Program-made: the position numbers and the translations under genes | Source: a virus | IMG/VR virus record: IMGVR_UViG_3300006810_000019 | Span: 1-31,984 of that record | DNA length: 31,984 nt | Reading direction: 5' to 3' (one strand) | The notes under the pieces: generated by a model | What the model saw: only the letters and a program-made list of their open reading frames with translations | Told to the model about the DNA's origin: nothing | Database searches by the model: none | Shown here: piece by piece, positions 21,448 through 29,479 of the stretch | Position numbering within the stretch: position 1 is the first letter of the stretch | Layout of the letters: each line of letters begins with the position of its first letter

Positions 21448-21601
21448 AACTGCTACCCTTCTTTTTCATCATCTTGGTTTTCATGCTGACGTTGGTGACA
21501 CTGCCACCAGTTTGCCGGGCATACTCTTTTGCCGCCTTCATGCCAGCCTTGCTGTATGCAAAGTGACGAGATTTACCATCTTTGGAAACTACCTTTGGCA
21601 T
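21434..21601 (-). CDS. 55-aa basic protein (MPKV family style)
   Basis: ATG 21601 overlaps the previous stop (TAATG) and the frame ends at TAA 21434-21436. The protein, MPKVVSKDGKSRHFAYSKAG then MKAAKEYARQTGG and a Lys-rich end (KTKMMKKKG), matches the style of small phage proteins with an 'HFAY-x(3)-G-x-x-A-A-K-x-Y' core found near head genes. It is basic and probably helical in the middle. Function is unknown. Overlap on both sides indicates translational coupling with its neighbours. Confidence 0.7.
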   Translation of the reverse strand: MPKVVSKDGKSRHFAYSKAGMKAAKEYARQTGGSVTNVSMKTKMMKKKGSSYGKA

Positions 21602-22197
21602 TATGATGCTCCTAATGTGTCAGCGGTGAACCTATCGCCACTCAATAGCGAGCGCGATCCTAAACGCCGCAAACCAGCCAAACGGCGGCGGCGGTTTTCT
21701 TCTTCCATTTTTTTAACAAACTCTGTTCGCTTAACTGTGGCAGGCCCACCAGCATCAGGCCCACCAGCATCAGGCCCACCAGCATCAGGCCCACCAGCAT
21801 CTGCGCTTGTTGGGCCTTTCATCAGTAAGCGGGGGTCGGCCTCTTCGGCACCCGCGCCACGCACTTCCGGCACTGTCAGGTTACGGCCAAAGTATTTACC
21901 GGCTGGCGTGCGAACACCCATCATCATGCCTCTTTCGTAGACAGGTGTGCCGCCAGCTTCTAATTCTTTAATTACCTTGGCACGCGTTGCAGTGCCAATG
22001 CCTGACAGTATTGCCGCAAAAGGACTCGGAACCCCGCTTAGACTTTCATCAGATTGGGTCTGACGCGCCTGCACTTGCTTAATTGCTTGGCTGCGGCTGA
22101 TCTGGCTGTTGTATGTTGGCGACTTGCCAGCGGCAGCAGCCATTGCTGTGTAACGTGATGCGGCTGCGGATTGGCCTCTTGTTCTAGGTGGTGCCAT
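21601..22197 (-). CDS. 198-aa hypothetical protein with DAGGP repeats
   Basis: The protein has a basic, Ala/Ser-rich N-terminus (MAPPRTRGQSAAASRYTAM), a middle domain with ERGMMMGVRTPAGKYFGRNL (about 89-108), then four exact DAGGP repeats (21741-21800), and a basic C-terminal helix (EEENRRRRLAGLRRLGSRSLL). The ending resembles that of the neighbouring 71-aa protein (RARMIGGRRMLLS), which suggests a shared short motif. No known family. Position between gp13-like and portal-side genes suggests a minor virion or assembly protein. Confidence 0.65.
   Translation of the reverse strand: MAPPRTRGQSAAASRYTAMAAAAGKSPTYNSQISRSQAIKQVQARQTQSDESLSGVPSPFAAILSGIGTATRAKVIKELEAGGTPVYERGMMMGVRTPAGKYFGRNLTVPEVRGAGAEEADPRLLMKGPTSADAGGPDAGGPDAGGPDAGGPATVKRTEFVKKMEEENRRRRLAGLRRLGSRSLLSGDRFTADTLGAS
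21741..21800. repeat. Four exact 15-bp tandem repeats
   Basis: CAGGCCCACCAGCAT occurs four times with no mismatch, encoding four DAGGP units on the minus strand within the 198-aa protein. The repeat is in phase with codons, so copy-number changes would lengthen or shorten a proline/glycine linker without breaking the frame. Exact identity at the DNA level points to recent slippage. Confidence 0.98.
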
Positions 22198-22417: not shown

Positions 22418-22878
22418 CAAAAATACCTCGCAAACATTACATAGTCGGCGCTGTCAGCACCGTAATTGTGCAGAACGCCCTCGCGGTTGAATTTTAACGC
22501 ATCTGCCCACCTTAACGCAAGGTCATGTTTTGCGTTTACAGTGATCTGCAACCGCTTCAGATTGGCATCGGATGCAACGTGGTTGATGTATCGTTGTGCG
22601 GATCTTGTAAGCGCAACCGGATGTGACGCAATCTGGTTGTCTGTCAGCATCCACATCTCAGCAACGCTGGGCCACATCAACACATAACCAAAAGAACATA
22701 GGATCTTGCCACCCACAACCGCGCTGCGTGCGTTGCCGGTTTCCTGATATTGGCGCAGCATTTCCCGAAAGTTAGGAACCGCATCAAAATAGTTAGCGTC
22801 AAACGGCCTAAGATCCATCGCGTAGGCGTGGCCCCAATGAAACGGCACAATCTGAACGCCGGGGTGGTTAACAAACAT
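22417..22878 (-). CDS. T7 gp13-like protein (DUF2833, GNAT-like fold)
   Basis: The 153-aa protein resembles the gp13/DUF2833 group: ARSAVVGGKILCSFGYVLMWPSVAEMWMLTD (about 51-81, given in part), then an RYINHVASDANLKRLQITVNA strand-helix and ALKFNREGVLHNYGADSADYVMFAR at the end. The 'G..REGVLHNYG...DY.MFAR' ending matches the GNAT C-terminal pattern. In T7 gp13 is needed for proper virion assembly. Its ATG shares one base with the terminase stop. Whether it has acetyltransferase activity is unknown. Confidence 0.78.
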   Translation of the reverse strand: MFVNHPGVQIVPFHWGHAYAMDLRPFDANYFDAVPNFREMLRQYQETGNARSAVVGGKILCSFGYVLMWPSVAEMWMLTDNQIASHPVALTRSAQRYINHVASDANLKRLQITVNAKHDLALRWADALKFNREGVLHNYGADSADYVMFARYF

Positions 22879-24431
22879 TAAAACACGCTGAAATCAGAAT
22901 TGGCCGATAGCTGACTAAACTGCTTGCTAAACTGGCTGTTGCGCGTAATCGCCCTAACCTCACCGGCACCAAGCATCAAATAGCCAAACGCATCACCAAC
23001 GTGCGAATGCTCGTTCTTATTCGGCGCATCCTTAAACCTCTCATAGCCAGAGCCAACCGCAACGCGCTTGAAATGATACCCGCCAGCTAACGCCTTGCGC
23101 GTCTTTAGGCACTTGTTGCTAACATACAGGCCCGGCTTGCCATCAATCATCCTATTCATCGGCATAGCACCAGCCTCACGCCGCACCATAAAATCATTCG
23201 ACTGTGTTGGCCGGGCATGAAGGCCAAGCGTCCGCATATGCTCAAACGCCGTCACCTCAAAAATCTCATCGCGCTTCACACCAGCCGGGTCACCCCAGAT
23301 TAACACATCACTCTTAGGAAAATGCTGCTGAATGTCCGACACAAGATGATGACAAAATCGCTCCAAGCCCATATCAAACGCCACAAGCTCATGCACAACG
23401 TGCCACCGCCCATTCGCCATCTTCTGCCCAAACACCGCCGCAGGGGTCAAACCAAAGTCAAGCCCGATATGCACCGGCCACCCCGGCTCAATCTCAACGC
23501 TAGACGACATCACGCTGTCGCTAAACTCCGGCCATACCGGCTTGCCATCCTGCACATAGACATACTGCGCCCCAGCATAGCACTGTATCCAATCCAGAGA
23601 TTTACCGGCAAGCTGCTGCTCATAATAGCCCGGCGGCAGATTGTTGACGTTCTCGGCCAGTGGGTTGTTGATCCACCATTTCTCAGCCGCAAAGATCGCG
23701 TCCTCATGCTCGGCAGTGCCTTCAACCACGCCGCCCGGCTGCTTGTAAAACTTCCAAGGGTATCTGCCCTTGATCGGGTTCTTCTCAGCTAAACCCGGCC
23801 ACCAATGATCGCTATCCATCGGGTTGGTACTCATCCACACGCCGCGCCAAGTGCAACCGCCATTCGCCTTGGTCGGGAAACGCCCGACACGCGATGTCAG
23901 GCCATCAACAACCGCCTTTGGCAACTCACGCGCTTCGTCTATGAAACCCCCGGTTAATTCTAAGGAAAGCAACTTCCGAACATCGCGGGGTTGATCCAAC
24001 GCCAAGAAGATCACCTCACAATCAAGCCCAGCCGCGCCATCACGCGGCGGCAGCTTGATGTGATGGGTGATAGGTGGCGACCAGCGCATCGGCCCCCAAA
24101 CATTCTCCGGGAATAACTCTTGCCACGTTTTAATCGTGGTCGTCCGCAACTCCGGGTAGATGTTTCGTATTACTGCAAATCTGGTATATCTGATCCCATC
24201 TATCGGTGAAGGCTCTTGCTTCACGGCTCGCAGCATCACCTCCGCTAATGAAGCAAACGTCTTGCCAGACCCGACTGGCCCCATTAATCCACGCACGAAA
24301 CTGTCGTCTTGCAAAAACTGCCATACTGTAGGACTTTCCGAAAAATTAAGGTTCAAACCAGCCAACGCCTCAGTGGTCGGCTGCTTGCGCCTACGCGGCG
24401 ACCTATCAGTCGCTCTTGATGACCTAGACAT
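22878..24431 (-). CDS. terL: Terminase large subunit
   Basis: The 517-aa protein is the packaging ATPase-nuclease. Visible motifs are Walker A GPVGSGKT (51-58), Walker B GGFIDEARE (161-169), a coupling region WMSTNP (about 199-204), and a RuvC/RNase H-type nuclease with D325 (IGLDFG), D381 (IWGDPAG) and D480 (HVGDAFGY). I chose ATG 24431 because GAGGAGGAGCCGG lies just upstream; a longer TTG start sits in that site. It overlaps the zinc-ribbon gene by 8 bp. The N-terminus is Ser/Arg-rich. The gp13-like gene next to it is the usual T7-type neighbour. Confidence 0.95.
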   Translation of the reverse strand: MSRSSRATDRSPRRRKQPTTEALAGLNLNFSESPTVWQFLQDDSFVRGLMGPVGSGKTFASLAEVMLRAVKQEPSPIDGIRYTRFAVIRNIYPELRTTTIKTWQELFPENVWGPMRWSPPITHHIKLPPRDGAAGLDCEVIFLALDQPRDVRKLLSLELTGGFIDEARELPKAVVDGLTSRVGRFPTKANGGCTWRGVWMSTNPMDSDHWWPGLAEKNPIKGRYPWKFYKQPGGVVEGTAEHEDAIFAAEKWWINNPLAENVNNLPPGYYEQQLAGKSLDWIQCYAGAQYVYVQDGKPVWPEFSDSVMSSSVEIEPGWPVHIGLDFGLTPAAVFGQKMANGRWHVVHELVAFDMGLERFCHHLVSDIQQHFPKSDVLIWGDPAGVKRDEIFEVTAFEHMRTLGLHARPTQSNDFMVRREAGAMPMNRMIDGKPGLYVSNKCLKTRKALAGGYHFKRVAVGSGYERFKDAPNKNEHSHVGDAFGYLMLGAGEVRAITRNSQFSKQFSQLSANSDFSVF

Positions 24432-24621
24432 CCGGCTCCTCCTCAAACGTCACAACAACAACCCCAAAATAATCAGACGGCGCAATCACAACCAACGGCC
24501 CACCGCACTCAGTACAAAGCACCGCCTCACCACTATCATACACGCGGCCCCGCGTCTCTTGCTCACAATGCCCACACACAACATCCTCGGAAAACCACCG
24601 TATGCTGACATAGTCGCGCAT
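24424..24621 (-). CDS. Small zinc-ribbon protein
   Basis: The 65-aa protein carries CGHC (about residues 16-19) and CTEC (about 36-39), a four-cysteine zinc ribbon, and ends in an acidic tail (VTFEEEPDV). I prefer ATG 24621 because GAGGT lies 8 bases upstream; ATG 24639 in the same frame is possible but has only a weak site. It lies between the terminase subunits, which suggests a packaging accessory or a DNA/RNA-binding factor. No named family is recognised beyond the zinc-ribbon pattern. Confidence 0.7.
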   Translation of the reverse strand: MRDYVSIRWFSEDVVCGHCEQETRGRVYDSGEAVLCTECGGPLVVIAPSDYFGVVVVTFEEEPDV

Positions 24622-24631
24622 ATCAATTACC

Positions 24632-25030
24632 TCACCCATCGCCGTCAACATCAACAATAGTGGCCTTCGGGCCGGTAATATTAATGCCAATCATGCTCGG
24701 CTTCTGATCGTTAGCATTAGGCTCCAGCAAACCACGATGCTTCGCCAACAGACGCAACGCGGCAATCTTATCGTGCATCTCAACCTCAATAGTATTGCCA
24801 AACTGATTGGGCGTAACCTTAACCTTCTTAATACTACGCTTGGCACGCTCTGGAAGCGCAGCAGACGGCGTTAACGTAATCTGCCCCATTGCATCCCACT
24901 GGATAACATCAGTCGCCTCGCCAGCACCAATGGCCTCCAACTCCTGCACAACGGCCTCACGCCGCACATCATCAGCAGCAGCGAGATCCGCACGCTTCTG
25001 CCTAACCGTTGTCGGCTTTTTGTCGCTCAT
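24632..25030 (-). CDS. terS: Terminase small subunit
   Basis: The 132-aa protein has the features of phage small terminases: an N-terminal helical DNA-binding region (TTVRQKRADLAAADDVRREAV), then IQWDAMGQITLTPSAALPERAKRSIKKVKVT, and the C-terminal core EVEMHDKIAALRLLAKHRGLLEP, which matches the 'LHDKxxALxxLGKHxGLF' element of the family. It would recognise the packaging site and load TerL. ATG 25030 is chosen because the longer reading adds a Cys/Arg-rich stretch lying within the previous gene. It overlaps that gene by 29 bp. Confidence 0.85.
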   Translation of the reverse strand: MSDKKPTTVRQKRADLAAADDVRREAVVQELEAIGAGEATDVIQWDAMGQITLTPSAALPERAKRSIKKVKVTPNQFGNTIEVEMHDKIAALRLLAKHRGLLEPNANDQKPSMIGINITGPKATIVDVDGDG

Positions 25031-25283
25031 GCAAACACTCCGATCCTGTCGCCGCATAGCCAGCCAGATCTGTCCAGCTATCCTGATGATCCCTGTTCTC
25101 AGACAACCGCGCAATCTTCATCGCCGCTAAACACAGAGCGACCTGCTCCGGCTCAAACTCAATGCCCATAATCGCAGTCCACATCACAGCAATGCGCTCG
25201 TGGTTCTGCCACGGTGGGCCGTATTCCTCGCCGCGATCCTTAACAGCATCCATCGCCGCACCCAATAAATCAAACCTGTTCAT
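25002..25283 (-). CDS. DUF6378-like phage protein
   Basis: The 93-aa protein contains VKDRGEEYGPPWQNHERIAVMW (about 14-35), then EPEQVALCLAAMKIARLSENRDHQDSWTDLAGYA (given in part), the pattern of the DUF6378 group common in phages. The helical D/E-rich 'WTDLAGYAA' ending resembles all-alpha nucleotide-pyrophosphatase-like folds, so a nucleotide-related role is possible but unproven. ATG 25283 has a good ribosome-binding site (AAGGAGAGTGACG) and overlaps the zinc-ribbon gene by 14 bp. Confidence 0.75.
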   Translation of the reverse strand: MNRFDLLGAAMDAVKDRGEEYGPPWQNHERIAVMWTAIMGIEFEPEQVALCLAAMKIARLSENRDHQDSWTDLAGYAATGSECLHERQKADNG

Positions 25284-25443
25284 CGTCACTCTCCTTAAAA
25301 TCAACAACCCTCATCCTGCAAGCAATGCAACGGTAAATCTTGCACCCACTTATATCCCTTTCCCTGCGCATCTTGACCTTGCACTTCGGGCAACATTCCC
25401 AATTAAGCCATTTTGCAAATTCGCCGTCACCCTTGTCAATCAT
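25270..25443 (-). CDS. 57-aa zinc-ribbon protein
   Basis: The start ATG 25443 follows TTTGGAGGTTAGC, one of the strongest ribosome-binding sites in the genome. The protein carries CCPKCKVKM (first CxxC pair, about residues 16-19) and CIACRMRV (second pair, about 37-40), a rubredoxin-knuckle zinc ribbon, then an acidic tail (DFKESDDEQV). It may bind nucleic acid or be a late regulator. A longer in-frame reading to 25572 is proline-rich and probably untranslated leader. Confidence 0.7.
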   Translation of the reverse strand: MIDKGDGEFAKWLNWECCPKCKVKMRRERDISGCKIYRCIACRMRVVDFKESDDEQV

Positions 25444-25590: not shown

Positions 25591-26256
25591 CTACACACCG
25601 CCTAGCTCCCTTGCAACGTCAGCCAAAGCTGGCACCCCTGCCCTGCGTGCAAGCGCCTTGTCGCATACGTCCAGCGTTGCTGCCATTACATCATCGGGCG
25701 TGTGGCCTACCACAGCCAGACGCCGGGCGTGCGCTATCTCATTGTCGAACAGACGCACCTGTCCGGTCGCTTGCTGTACGGCGCGGATGTAAGAATGGCA
25801 GATCGCCGCCGCTGTGCCATCAGATGTGTGTGGGTTTGGTTGTCCATCCCCCAGACCCCCTATTCCTTCTGGCGCATCCTCTTGATCCCTGACAAGCTGC
25901 AACGGTTTTGCAATGTGTACATCCTCAAACGTAGGCAGCGGCTCATCGCCATCCCACAGCACTTGGTAGCGGTTGCTTTTCCACCCGCTTGTTGTTTCTT
26001 GATAGTCCTTTGCTTGAAGCTGCCTCACATACTTGCGTTTCTTCAGCACCTTCAGCGCGTCATGCACGCTCTTACGTTCTGCATAGCCACTGACCTCACA
26101 CAGCGTAACCATTGACGGCCAGCATACGCCAGCCCTGTTGGTAAACGAACACAGCGCACCCAGCACTCTAAACTCTCGCTCTTTCAACTGCCGGTCAGCG
26201 TAGGCTCTCATTGGCGTCACTGACCAAGGCCGCTTGTTTTCAGAAAGGGATTTCAT
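25591..26256 (-). CDS. Helix-turn-helix replication protein
   Basis: The 221-aa protein has an N-terminal winged-helix domain of the HTH_36/phage replication O type: LKEREFRVLGALCSFTNRAG, then CWPSMVTLCEVSGYAERKSVHDALKVLKKRKYVR (about 24-78, given in part). The C-terminal half is a separate helical domain (ICHSYIRAVQQATGQV, then DDVMAATLDVCDKALARR). Such proteins bind the origin and recruit the helicase. It is adjacent to the primase-helicase block and overlaps the SSB-tail gene by 17 bp. Helicase-loader activity is inferred. Confidence 0.75.
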   Translation of the reverse strand: MKSLSENKRPWSVTPMRAYADRQLKEREFRVLGALCSFTNRAGVCWPSMVTLCEVSGYAERKSVHDALKVLKKRKYVRQLQAKDYQETTSGWKSNRYQVLWDGDEPLPTFEDVHIAKPLQLVRDQEDAPEGIGGLGDGQPNPHTSDGTAAAICHSYIRAVQQATGQVRLFDNEIAHARRLAVVGHTPDDVMAATLDVCDKALARRAGVPALADVARELGGV

Positions 26257-26821
26257 CGTTCAGCAATTCCTCTGTCTTTGTTCTGCTCTTTACTGTTTCC
26301 ACAACTGCGCCGGGGAACATTTCCTTGATGTCGTTGACCAGCGGCGCTTTATCTTTTTCAAACTTGCTTACAATCATAGCCAGTTCATCCACACTATACA
26401 CCACCAATTCGCGGTTTTCGCGTTTGACCTTCGCCACATCATAGTTGGTCTTCACCACAGCCATCACTCTGCCATCGGGCATAGCCGCTTCAAAGTATTC
26501 ACCACTCAGCGGATCTGCCCCATTAGCGATAGCTGCCTTTTCCAACGCGACCAGCCCCCGCTTTGTGACCTCAACCTGATGCTCTATGTCTGACCGGCTA
26601 TCGATAGCTTTGTTGAGCTTATCCATTTGCGCTTCAAACTTCTCTCGCAGTTCACCGCCTGCCAACCAAGGCAATCGGTCAACGCCCCACTTTAGCTCCA
26701 GCTTGCTCACCGCCTCATCGTAGTCAACCAGCGACTGTTGCATACGGCGCTCGGCTGGCGCACTAGGCGCATAGTAAGGGCGGTTTTGTTTAGTCGGTCT
26801 TTTAGTCACTCTTCTAGCCAT
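26240..26821 (-). CDS. Replication-region protein with SSB-like C-terminal tip
   Basis: The 193-aa protein starts with a basic segment (MARRVTKRPTKQNRPYYAPS), continues as a long charged helical region (RRMQQSLVDYDEAVSKLELK; EKFEAQMDKLNKAIDSRSD) and a beta-rich domain, and ends in NDEIPF. That ending matches the acidic DDIPF tip by which bacterial SSBs recruit helicases, primase and repair enzymes. No OB-fold motif is obvious. It sits between primase-helicase and the HTH replication protein. It may be an accessory that docks replication partners, or an SSB mimic. The family is unrecognised. Confidence 0.6.
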   Translation of the reverse strand: MARRVTKRPTKQNRPYYAPSAPAERRMQQSLVDYDEAVSKLELKWGVDRLPWLAGGELREKFEAQMDKLNKAIDSRSDIEHQVEVTKRGLVALEKAAIANGADPLSGEYFEAAMPDGRVMAVVKTNYDVAKVKRENRELVVYSVDELAMIVSKFEKDKAPLVNDIKEMFPGAVVETVKSRTKTEELLNDEIPF

Positions 26822-26860
26822 TCTTTTGTCTCCCTGACGTTGCCCATCTACTATGAGAAA

Positions 26861-26884
26861 GAGATCCCCTATAGTGGGGATCTC
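26861..26884. repeat. 9-bp inverted repeat GAGATCCCC/GGGGATCTC
   Basis: Perfect arms GAGATCCCC (26861-26869) and GGGGATCTC (26876-26884) flank a 6-nt TATAGT loop. Read leftward it is followed by TTTCT, so it could act as a weak terminator after the primase-helicase gene. It is also the left part of the GAGAT cluster and may be a protein-binding dyad. Confidence 0.85.
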
Positions 26885-26944
26885 ATCTCAGTCATAGTGA
26901 GATGCGGTATGAGATTTAGTATGAGATTGCATTATTTTGATCTC
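26861..26944. repeat. GAGAT/ATCTC cluster: candidate origin or operator
   Basis: Seven copies of GAGAT occur in 84 bp: direct at 26861, 26899, 26911 and 26923, inverted at 26880-26884, 26885-26889 and 26940-26944. The last three direct copies lie exactly 12 bp apart as TGAGAT-N6 units. The cluster fills the 110-bp gap between the primase-helicase stop and the next gene, and its last copy overlaps the end of the helicase gene. Iterons of this spacing are typical of replication-initiator binding sites. An operator for the downstream genes is the alternative. Confidence 0.6.
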
Positions 26945-28758
26945 ATATTTTCGTTCAAGCCTTTGTTAACCCACACTTTACCGTCATCTATGAAAATCGC
27001 ACCCTTGCTTTGCAGCGCCGCCCGGTCATCAGCACGCCGTCTTGACGTAAAGTCGGGTGCTTTTGCCTTGTGCAGATCGTGCCAACGCGCCACAGATATG
27101 CGTGGTGTCCCAGCATCCACGGCACCATTTTTAAGTGCTTGCAGCGCCAGCATCTGCCCTGTTGTTAGTTTTGTGCTGCGCCGTTTCTCTTCGGTCTGCA
27201 CCGGCTTGATCACTGCGCTGCTGTCTTCTAGCAATGCGATTGGCACCATTTCATAGGTTGTGTCGTCTATAGGTTCTGCGTCTTTCATCTTCTCCATCTT
27301 CAGCGTCAGGATGCCTTCACTGGCTGACAGGGCCAGCACAGTGTCGCTTAAACCCATTAAAGAACTGCTGCCTCGCATTCCCCTCGCAGCATCCTTCCCG
27401 GAGTGATGCACAGCCAACACAGCGCATTTAGCGTGCCGCTGCACAACGCCGCACATCTCGCCAAACTGGCCCATCGCCGTTGCGTCATTCTCGTCTGATC
27501 CGGTTGATGCCAGTGTCCGGGCAACCGTATCAATGACAATCAGACTAAACTGCGTCTTAAAGTTGTCGATTGTGCGTAGCAGCTTGTCCAAATCTGGCGC
27601 GTCCAGCATCTTCACTGCCATTGGCAGTACATACATCGGCACATCCTCGTCCACGCCATAGTGTGCCTTCCACGCCCTTACACGCTTGCCCAAGCCCCCA
27701 ACGCCCTCTGCGGCTATATAAAGCACCGCACCCTGCCTTGTGTCCCTGTCGTGCCACGCTCTGCCGCTTGCGATGGACAGCGCCCAATCAATGCTGATGA
27801 AGCTCTTGCCAATGCCCGGCGCACCATATAGCACGCTAAAACCGTGTTGCGTTAGGATGCCGTCCAATGCCCAGCTTACCGGCGGCATATTCATCAGGTA
27901 GTCAACATCGAACGTCTCGAATACGTCTGGCCGATCTTCCGGCTCTGCTGGCTCTGGCTCCTGCGATATGACCGGCGCTTGCTTTGCCAGTTCCATTAGT
28001 TGCCGCTGATCGCCGCCCTTAAACAGCCAATCGACAACATCATCCTTGTCAGCGCCGCCAAGCTCAACCCGCTTGATGGCCTTGGCCGTACTGTATAGCT
28101 GGCTGACCACAATGTCAGCGTGCGCTTGCCCGGCCTCGTCATTGTCGGGGATCACGATCACCTTGCGGCCTTTGAAATACTGGTTAATCTCCGGCTTCCA
28201 ATTCTTGCTGCCACCGTGGTTAGTGGTTGCGACTAGGCCCAGATTTATCAGCCTTTCGGCGCATTTCTCGCCTTCTACAATAAACACTGGCGCGTCCGGG
28301 TTCTGGATCATGCCCACCAGATTGTACGGCAACGCCTCTACACCATCCATATTGTACAGCCAGCCACCCTTGTCGTCCGGTCTGCGCTGTCTAAAGGTCT
28401 TAGGCTCGAACCGTTGGATCTGATAGCGCAGCACGCCGTCCTCATCGATGTAGTCGTACTGCTTGGACAGGTATTTGCTTGGCTGTAGTGATTTCTGTGT
28501 GCGCTTTGGTATCCCAAAATTCTTTTCTAGTATATCTGGGATGCTGCCATCAAAGCTGGCTGGCTCGTATAGGCGCACCAAGTCTGTCAAACCGCCGCCG
28601 GAATTGGTCTCGTGGCAATAGAAAGTGGCCTTTGACAGATCCACACTGGTGCTGCCGTGTGTGCCAAACCGCAACTGCTTTGAGTTAGACAGCTTTGCGT
28701 TTGGCTCTCCGAGGTAGTGCCGAGCCACCGCTTCCATATAACTGCTAAAATTTGTCAT
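26932..28758 (-). CDS. Primase-helicase with TOPRIM and RepA-type ATPase
   Basis: The 608-aa protein joins a primase-like N-terminal region, with CHETNSGGG (about 48-56) recalling the zinc/CHC2-linked segment, to a TOPRIM domain (FIVEGEKCAERL with E162; VIVIPDNDEAG with D205/D207), then a hexameric RepA/DnaB-type ATPase with Walker A GAPGIGKS (312-319), Walker B LIVID (406-410) and VHHSGKD (450-456). The C-terminus holds a helical DNA-binding-like segment. It should unwind and prime DNA at the fork using host polymerase, as no phage DNA polymerase is present. It starts at ATG 28758 behind AAGGGGTTAAACA. Confidence 0.9.
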   Translation of the reverse strand: MTNFSSYMEAVARHYLGEPNAKLSNSKQLRFGTHGSTSVDLSKATFYCHETNSGGGLTDLVRLYEPASFDGSIPDILEKNFGIPKRTQKSLQPSKYLSKQYDYIDEDGVLRYQIQRFEPKTFRQRRPDDKGGWLYNMDGVEALPYNLVGMIQNPDAPVFIVEGEKCAERLINLGLVATTNHGGSKNWKPEINQYFKGRKVIVIPDNDEAGQAHADIVVSQLYSTAKAIKRVELGGADKDDVVDWLFKGGDQRQLMELAKQAPVISQEPEPAEPEDRPDVFETFDVDYLMNMPPVSWALDGILTQHGFSVLYGAPGIGKSFISIDWALSIASGRAWHDRDTRQGAVLYIAAEGVGGLGKRVRAWKAHYGVDEDVPMYVLPMAVKMLDAPDLDKLLRTIDNFKTQFSLIVIDTVARTLASTGSDENDATAMGQFGEMCGVVQRHAKCAVLAVHHSGKDAARGMRGSSSLMGLSDTVLALSASEGILTLKMEKMKDAEPIDDTTYEMVPIALLEDSSAVIKPVQTEEKRRSTKLTTGQMLALQALKNGAVDAGTPRISVARWHDLHKAKAPDFTSRRRADDRAALQSKGAIFIDDGKVWVNKGLNENMRSK

Positions 28759-28840: not shown

Positions 28841-29479
28841 CTAGAAAATGTCATCACTCGCAGCAGCGGCAGAAGGAGGGGCTGTCGCTGGTGCTGGGAC
28901 ATCGGGGGTGGATTGTGTTGCTGTGTCTAGCATTTCTGGGCGGTCAATCCAGCCTGACAATTCCCAGCGCGGCACGCGCCAAGTCTGGCTGCTGCCATCG
29001 TTGAGTTGCTGCGTCACACGGTCTGTGCCGGTGATCTCAATGACCGGCACCTTGCCAGCGTTGGCGGCTTTGCCTGCCTCAAACGCCTTGTAGATCGGGA
29101 CCATTCGGTCATACACATTTTTGGATGAGCTAGACAACTCTCTAAGACCAATATCTTTGTTTGCCAGCACGACCCGGAAGCCCCATTTATAAAGCGGCTT
29201 GCCTTGTGCGTCCATCTCGTCTGGACGCTCTGGGCGCGGCTCACCGGCCTTTACCATTACAAAATGCGGCGCAGGCTTGAAGGCCATCCAGCCCATCTCC
29301 AGCACAGCCAAATCCATCACAACCTTGGTTGGTGTCTCTAGCTCAGTCTCTTTTGACTGCCACATTCCATCAACCTGTTCGCGGTCAACAGCAATGAAGC
29401 TGCCGTCCTTGGCTGAGAACTTAATGATTGGGGTGCGATCCCCGCCTGTACCGCCACCGGCACCTTGATAATCAAACAT
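28841..29479 (-). CDS. Single-strand-DNA-binding-like protein
   Basis: The 212-aa protein has a beta-rich core (IIKFSAKDGSFIAVDREQ; KPAPHFVMVKAGEPRPERP; WGFRVVLANKDIGLREL), then a basic segment, then a Pro/Ala-rich linker ending in SDDIF. The acidic tail resembles the SSB C-terminal tip that binds replication partners. Placement just upstream of the primase-helicase fits an SSB role, and similar phage proteins are commonly treated as SSBs. It is not a classical OB-fold sequence, so identity rests on tail and context. It could instead be the missing annealing partner of the exonuclease at 279-1235. Confidence 0.6.
   Translation of the reverse strand: MFDYQGAGGGTGGDRTPIIKFSAKDGSFIAVDREQVDGMWQSKETELETPTKVVMDLAVLEMGWMAFKPAPHFVMVKAGEPRPERPDEMDAQGKPLYKWGFRVVLANKDIGLRELSSSSKNVYDRMVPIYKAFEAGKAANAGKVPVIEITGTDRVTQQLNDGSSQTWRVPRWELSGWIDRPEMLDTATQSTPDVPAPATAPPSAAAASDDIF

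Follow-up and report, generated by a model that had tools for sequence, protein, structure and literature searches.

The repeat cluster at positions 26861–26944 very probably constitutes the replication origin of the phage, its iterons being putatively bound by the predicted winged helix at the C-terminus of the primase-helicase. The window analysed, that is, the whole stretch of DNA, comprises 31,984 nt (positions 1–31,984 of IMG/VR virus record IMGVR_UViG_3300006810_000019). In related phages, an array of short repeats occupies the same place between the primase-helicase gene and the gene that follows it; the repeated word turns over from lineage to lineage, and it covaries with residues on one face of a single helix of the primase-helicase. 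On these sequence comparisons, the reading of the cluster as an origin is well supported, and its putative binder is reassigned from the 221-aa HTH protein, favoured in the original prediction, to the helicase.

A recount of the cluster gave the seven copies of GAGAT/ATCTC in 84 bp that had been claimed (26861+, 26880-, 26885-, 26899+, 26911+, 26923+ and 26940-). The three copies at 26899, 26911 and 26923 are indeed 12 bp apart, so that the phased array of at least three short repeats that is a general feature of iteron origins is present. The 9-bp dyad (26861–26869 and 26876–26884, with a loop of 6 nt) is perfect, but it sits within the cluster and not beside it. The cluster does not lie wholly in the gap between the two genes, the exception being the outermost copy (26940–26944), which is located in the last codons (M-R-S) of the primase-helicase gene.

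The gap itself, which we regard as the intergenic origin candidate, measures 110 bp from the primase-helicase stop to the start of the 193-aa gene (26822–26931, minus strand), and has a G+C content of 44%, compared with 52% for the window. Read on the minus strand from the helicase end towards the 193-aa gene, the order of elements is GAGAT, ATCTCATAC, ATCTCATAC, ATCTCAC, GAGAT GAGAT, CCCCACTATAGGGG, ATCTC, where ATCTCATAC is the longer word common to copies. The first element is the outermost iteron already mentioned, and a copy overlapping the helicase stop is also found in many relatives. It is followed by three direct iterons, ATCTC(A), with the 12-bp spacing (26899–26927), two of which are the longer word. 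Then come two inverted iterons (26880–26889) abutting one side of the core palindrome CCCCACTATAGGGG (26866–26879), and, beyond the core, a single iteron (26861–26865). This last iteron, the core and positions 26880–26884 together make up the 9-bp dyad (26861–26884).

When the whole 32-kb window was shuffled 300 times with preservation of dinucleotides, the maximum number of GAGAT/ATCTC copies per 84 bp never exceeded 4, and it was 2 in 234 of the shuffles. The top three 6-mers of the cluster have 15 matches inside it, whereas a 130-bp stretch elsewhere in the window has 3 at most, and nowhere else in the 32 kb do its words occur densely. The densest repeat stretch of the window as such is coding (21721–21850), and corresponds to a GGPDA peptide repeat in a 198-aa ORF (21601–22197). 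A T7-like promoter reading of CACTATAGGG was discarded, as this sequence occurs only once in the window and none of the genes scanned encodes a single-subunit RNA polymerase. The GC skew, which the original prediction had proposed as a check, was computed but proved uninformative: it stays below zero over almost all of the window and cannot locate the origin, because nearly all genes point one way.

Related phage contigs were fetched using the helicase and the 193-aa protein as queries, yielding 214 related loci with 98 distinct sites. The distance from the helicase stop to the 193-aa start ranges from 90 to 153 bp in the 214 loci, and a repeat array lies between the two genes in all 98 distinct sites (median z = 10 for repeat excess over dinucleotide shuffles). 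The lowest repeat scores belong to the CTCCC-type sites, for which shuffles are a weak control because of their low complexity. The absence of repeats from the syntenic place, which the original prediction had named as counting against it, was therefore encountered in none of the relatives examined, and the candidacy of the cluster as an origin is supported. No true prophage relative was present among 100 pattern matches in the genome collection.

While position and layout are constant, the word switches as a set across the copies of a site. The words found in the different lineages include ATCTC, ATCACA, ATCGCA, CCCCAC, CGCACG, CCGAAC, GTCCG, TCGGAA, GTCGCA, CCGACC, GGTTATA, TCGTACGA and CTCCC, and by our own count there are about 15 word classes. 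This turnover as a set within a constant layout suggests that all copies answer to one reader, and that this reader is encoded by the phage. In most families, a palindrome lies between inverted words, with centres of the CCCTATAGGG, CCTTAGG, CCCTAAGGG and CCCTAGGG kinds, and TA-centred cores recur in most relatives while the words differ. It should be noted that this statement rests partly on reading of the sites by eye, because the automatic centre-finder picked a palindrome without CTA/TAG in 19 of the 98 sites, often another iteron dyad. An obvious AT-rich unwinding stretch is absent in some relatives, which are GC-rich throughout. In two loci (L215, position 8927, and L221, position 7280), extra CGCACG words occur about 1.1 kb past the site in coding sequence resembling the HTH gene; these probably reflect codon usage.

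The 608-aa primase-helicase (26932–28758, minus strand) comprises an N-terminal primase region, assigned from PHROG/NCBIfam similarity, a RepA-type AAA_25 helicase domain (aa 282–457, the sole Pfam match of the protein) and a C-terminal winged helix, so that primase, helicase and a predicted DNA-binding domain appear to be joined in one chain. The helicase matches the solved RSF1010 RepA in the PDB (1g8y, E = 2.7e-8, positions 290–469), and this profile match places it in the RepA family of hexameric helicases, the hexamer being predicted. The winged helix, our proposed iteron reader (aa 503–608; 26935–27252, minus strand), was predicted by AlphaFold2 from a protein alignment, without any DNA information, as an H-E-H-H-E-E fold with pLDDT above 90 over the core. 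Its recognition helix, helix 3, spans aa 572–584 (27007–27045, minus strand). Comparison of the model with known folds returned mostly winged helices, headed by the Orc1/Cdc6 origin-recognition domains (Z about 10 over 74–85 residues); because winged helices are common, these matches support the fold and not the function. P4 alpha is not among the fold matches listed, which excludes nothing. Upstream of the helicase, a 212-aa protein ending in SDDIF is encoded (28841–29479, minus strand), whose position matches that of a gene annotated as ssDNA-binding in phage CRP-811.

The association of the word with protein regions was scanned in 15-residue windows, controlling for distances over helicase residues 1–500. 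Along the helicase, the strongest association was found at aa 565–585 (partial Mantel r 0.44, permutation p = 2e-4), a typical window giving about 0.07. The best four of the 608 helicase columns were, in order, 580, 576, 584 and 573, and since AlphaFold2 puts helix 3 at 572–584, all four map to a single face of the recognition helix. Loci with ATCTC words have R573 and A/S576 (6/6 loci), and those with ATCAC/ATCGC words have A/G/S573 and R/K576 (19/19 loci). In triples of loci in which helix and motor are discordant, the word follows the helix 603 times and the motor 418 times, so that the excess is modest; the same test of the helix against the 193-aa protein is clear (2215 versus 466).

The covariation sample is phylogenetically structured, that is, relatives are alike in both word and helix, and linkage also contributes, because the site adjoins the end of the gene that encodes the winged-helix domain. 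However, pure linkage is disfavoured, since the signal is highest at the helix and declines toward the codons nearest the site, and since the neighbour on the far side, the 193-aa protein, shows no positive association in any window. Pure phylogeny is likewise disfavoured: the nearest recognition helices to that of the window (L164, L175 and L178) have the same word, whereas its nearest helicase motors and nearest 193-aa proteins are found mainly with other words.

The same arrangement can be followed into named phages. In the Roseobacter phages CRP-811, CRP-823, CRP-831 and CRP-822, in which the site sequence was read, the order of helicase, gap and 193-aa homologue is the same and the primase region has diverged; CRP-821 matches by homology. 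The word is TTTGTAG in CRP-811/823 and TTTATAC in CRP-831/822, with an identical core, AAACCCTTTAGGGTTT. The helicases of the two pairs are 86% identical, and the differences fixed between the classes are concentrated in the last 110 residues. CRP-822 and CRP-823 have their host strain in common but differ in their words, and therefore the host does not set the word. The description of the CRP-822-type family states that members without a polymerase gene rely on the host (PMC12629253), and the word 'repeat' was not retrieved by a search of its text. A literature search found no paper in which 'iterons' occurs together with 'roseophage'.

In Rhizobium phages 16-3 (CGTGACA, 14 copies), RHph_N65 (GCGGAGA, 12 copies) and RHph_Y3_1 (GTTCCCA, 9 copies), the AAA_25 helicase is likewise followed by an array with a TA-centred palindrome, and in ct3Oc712 eight copies of TGGGACA accompany the core CACACCTATAGGGTGTG in the same place. 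Because the primases of phage 16-3, ct3Oc712 and, weakly, RHph_N65 are of the Prim-Pol type, the type of primase seems to be exchangeable. In ctyzp037 (MW202711), a GGGACA array precedes the 193-aa homologue, away from the helicase. A separate dense array (ACGTTCA, 7 copies) was observed within the RepA coding region of ctyzp037 (L235, about 2800–2975), the GGGACA array being further downstream. In Caulobacter phage GB2A, Vibrio phage 1.210.O, ct76p945 and Microcystis phage Mae-JY30, no array was noted downstream of the helicase, and the rule is therefore not valid for all AAA_25 helicases.

Outside the replication genes, the large terminase of the window (22878–24446) is 63% identical to that of Methylophilales phage MEP301, which has no annotated helicase, while the contigs matched by the window's replication genes have different terminases; the replication module seems to travel from one type of virion to another. 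Near this module, the window encodes a DUF6378 protein (25002–25307; PHROG name 'phosphofructokinase'), and CRP-811 has a gene annotated as phosphofructokinase at a similar place.

The 193-aa protein (26240–26821, minus strand), whose gene adjoins the site in nearly all relatives, belongs to no known family, and its model gave no significant fold match. It ends in an SSB-like acidic tip, NDEIPF, and the protein ends in DEIPF/DDIPF in the relatives aligned. It could recruit host replisome factors, although this is a guess. On the covariation data, it was rejected as the reader of the word.

Binding of the winged helix may alternatively, or additionally, control transcription of the 193-aa gene. 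That the site is solely an operator, through which the winged helix controls the 193-aa gene and its operon while replication starts elsewhere, seems unlikely to us. The site does lie just upstream of the gene start, and there is one weak promoter-like match on the minus strand; however, 0.5 such matches are expected, each locus has one dense site, and the reader is fused to a primase-helicase. In addition, the arrays of ct3Oc712 and phage 16-3 have no obvious 193-aa homologue beside them.

The reader named in the original prediction, the 221-aa lambda-O-like HTH_36 protein (25591–26256, minus strand), would bind the GAGAT iterons, deliver the helicase and open the origin. It matches HTH_36 and PHROG replication-initiation profiles, and its gene is located two genes downstream of the site. 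However, of the 98 distinct loci, all of which have the repeats, only 44 yielded the gene; 44 is a lower bound, because some loci are fragments. Three loci (L005, L006 and L009) share one repeat word, yet the recognition regions of their HTH proteins all differ, and in 21 nonredundant loci with HTH_36, the C-terminal helix of the helicase gave a partial Mantel r of 0.594, compared with 0.107 for the best HTH_36 window. HTH_36 was consequently rejected as the reader, a role we regard as very improbable. Of the lambda O-type features, iterons read by an O-like HTH protein are thus not what is seen, nor is there a repeat array inside the HTH gene, whose best 9-mer occurs twice. As the original prediction claimed, the phage has no polymerase among those of its genes that were compared with Pfam and PHROGs.

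There is only a very slight chance that the dyad is an intrinsic terminator or another RNA element of the helicase transcript. Its 9-bp stem is followed on the minus strand by TTTCT, with a terminator-like score, and the single strand folds strongly (z = -5.2), but the T-run is not conserved in relatives (e.g. GGGGATCACAATCACAC and GGGATCGCCTCATCGC), which do keep the direct repeats lying outside the dyad, and no known RNA family was matched in Rfam. Dyad-bearing repeat arrays also occur at partition- and packaging-type sites, but it is barely credible here that the same domain binds the array for partition, packaging or another kind of DNA marking, as no computed result points there, the covarying reader is a replicative primase-helicase and not a terminase, and the array accompanies different virion modules.

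If the cluster is an origin read by the primase-helicase, initiation of replication there may be envisaged as follows. The winged helix would bind the iterons, and the inverted iterons flanking the core would hold helicase subunits face to face, so that the motor loads inward. The RepA-type motor would then open the DNA at or beside the core, the primase domain would lay the first primers, and the host polymerase would take over after priming. Direct repeats spaced by about one helical turn, together with inverted repeats around a core with a TA step, suit such an assembly; the role of the core in opening is a guess.

The helicase of P4 alpha is SF3-like, whereas the motor here is of the RepA/AAA_25 type and not of the SF3 type. 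P4 alpha combines primase, helicase and an origin-repeat-binding winged helix in one polypeptide (PMC4234260), as does the present protein with its predicted winged helix. Differences from P4 are that the array here is directly 3' of the gene, that it has a TA-centred palindrome and that words vary by lineage. The protein would therefore work like P4 alpha without being a member of that group, because its motor matches AAA_25 only in Pfam, and RSF1010 RepA in the PDB. In RSF1010, whose RepA the helicase domain resembles, iterons, helicase and primase act together (PMC4234260), but RepA, RepB' and RepC are separate and RepC reads the iterons; here, primase and covarying DNA-reading domain are in the helicase chain. 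The multifunctional ORF904 of pRN1 has a C-terminal winged helix and an origin directly downstream of its gene, conserved, like the sites described here, in layout and not in sequence (PMC4234260). However, the pRN1 origin is a 100-nt stem-loop without iterons, the helicase is SF3, and the primase is of the archaeo-eukaryotic type.

Covariation of an initiator DNA-binding domain with the origin, working only in cognate pairs, is known from PLE (PMC8263062), and PICI Pri-Rep combines an initiator with iterons beside the rep gene (PMC6092414). Both are satellites and not autonomous phages; moreover, PLE RepA is a RepA_N protein and not a fused primase-helicase, and in PICI origins an AT-rich stretch lies between two sets of iterons. 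Short virus-specific words read by a cognate Rep, differing between close relatives as the words do here, are described for geminiviruses (PMC12548392), but these have ssDNA genomes and use a nicking Rep for rolling-circle replication.

We consider the chances even that these phages represent a widespread and undescribed replicon class, with a RepA-type helicase, an interchangeable primase and a fast-evolving origin-reading winged helix, and with the origin directly after the gene, where the TA-centred core is kept while the word switches in all copies along with a few residues of the helix face. If this is true, many orthogonal origin/initiator pairs would exist, and their specificity code could be read. 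Rivalry with co-infecting phages or satellites may be what drives the switching.

For most marine phages, no origin of replication has, to our knowledge, been described. The rule of looking directly 3' of the AAA_25 primase-helicase locates a candidate origin in cultured Roseobacter phages and in Rhizobium phage 16-3. The word classes, taken with the recognition-helix sequences, form a natural data set on how initiator/origin specificity changes, and might provide replicons that are mutually exclusive; the change of word from CRP-811/823 to CRP-831/822 lends itself to a direct test.
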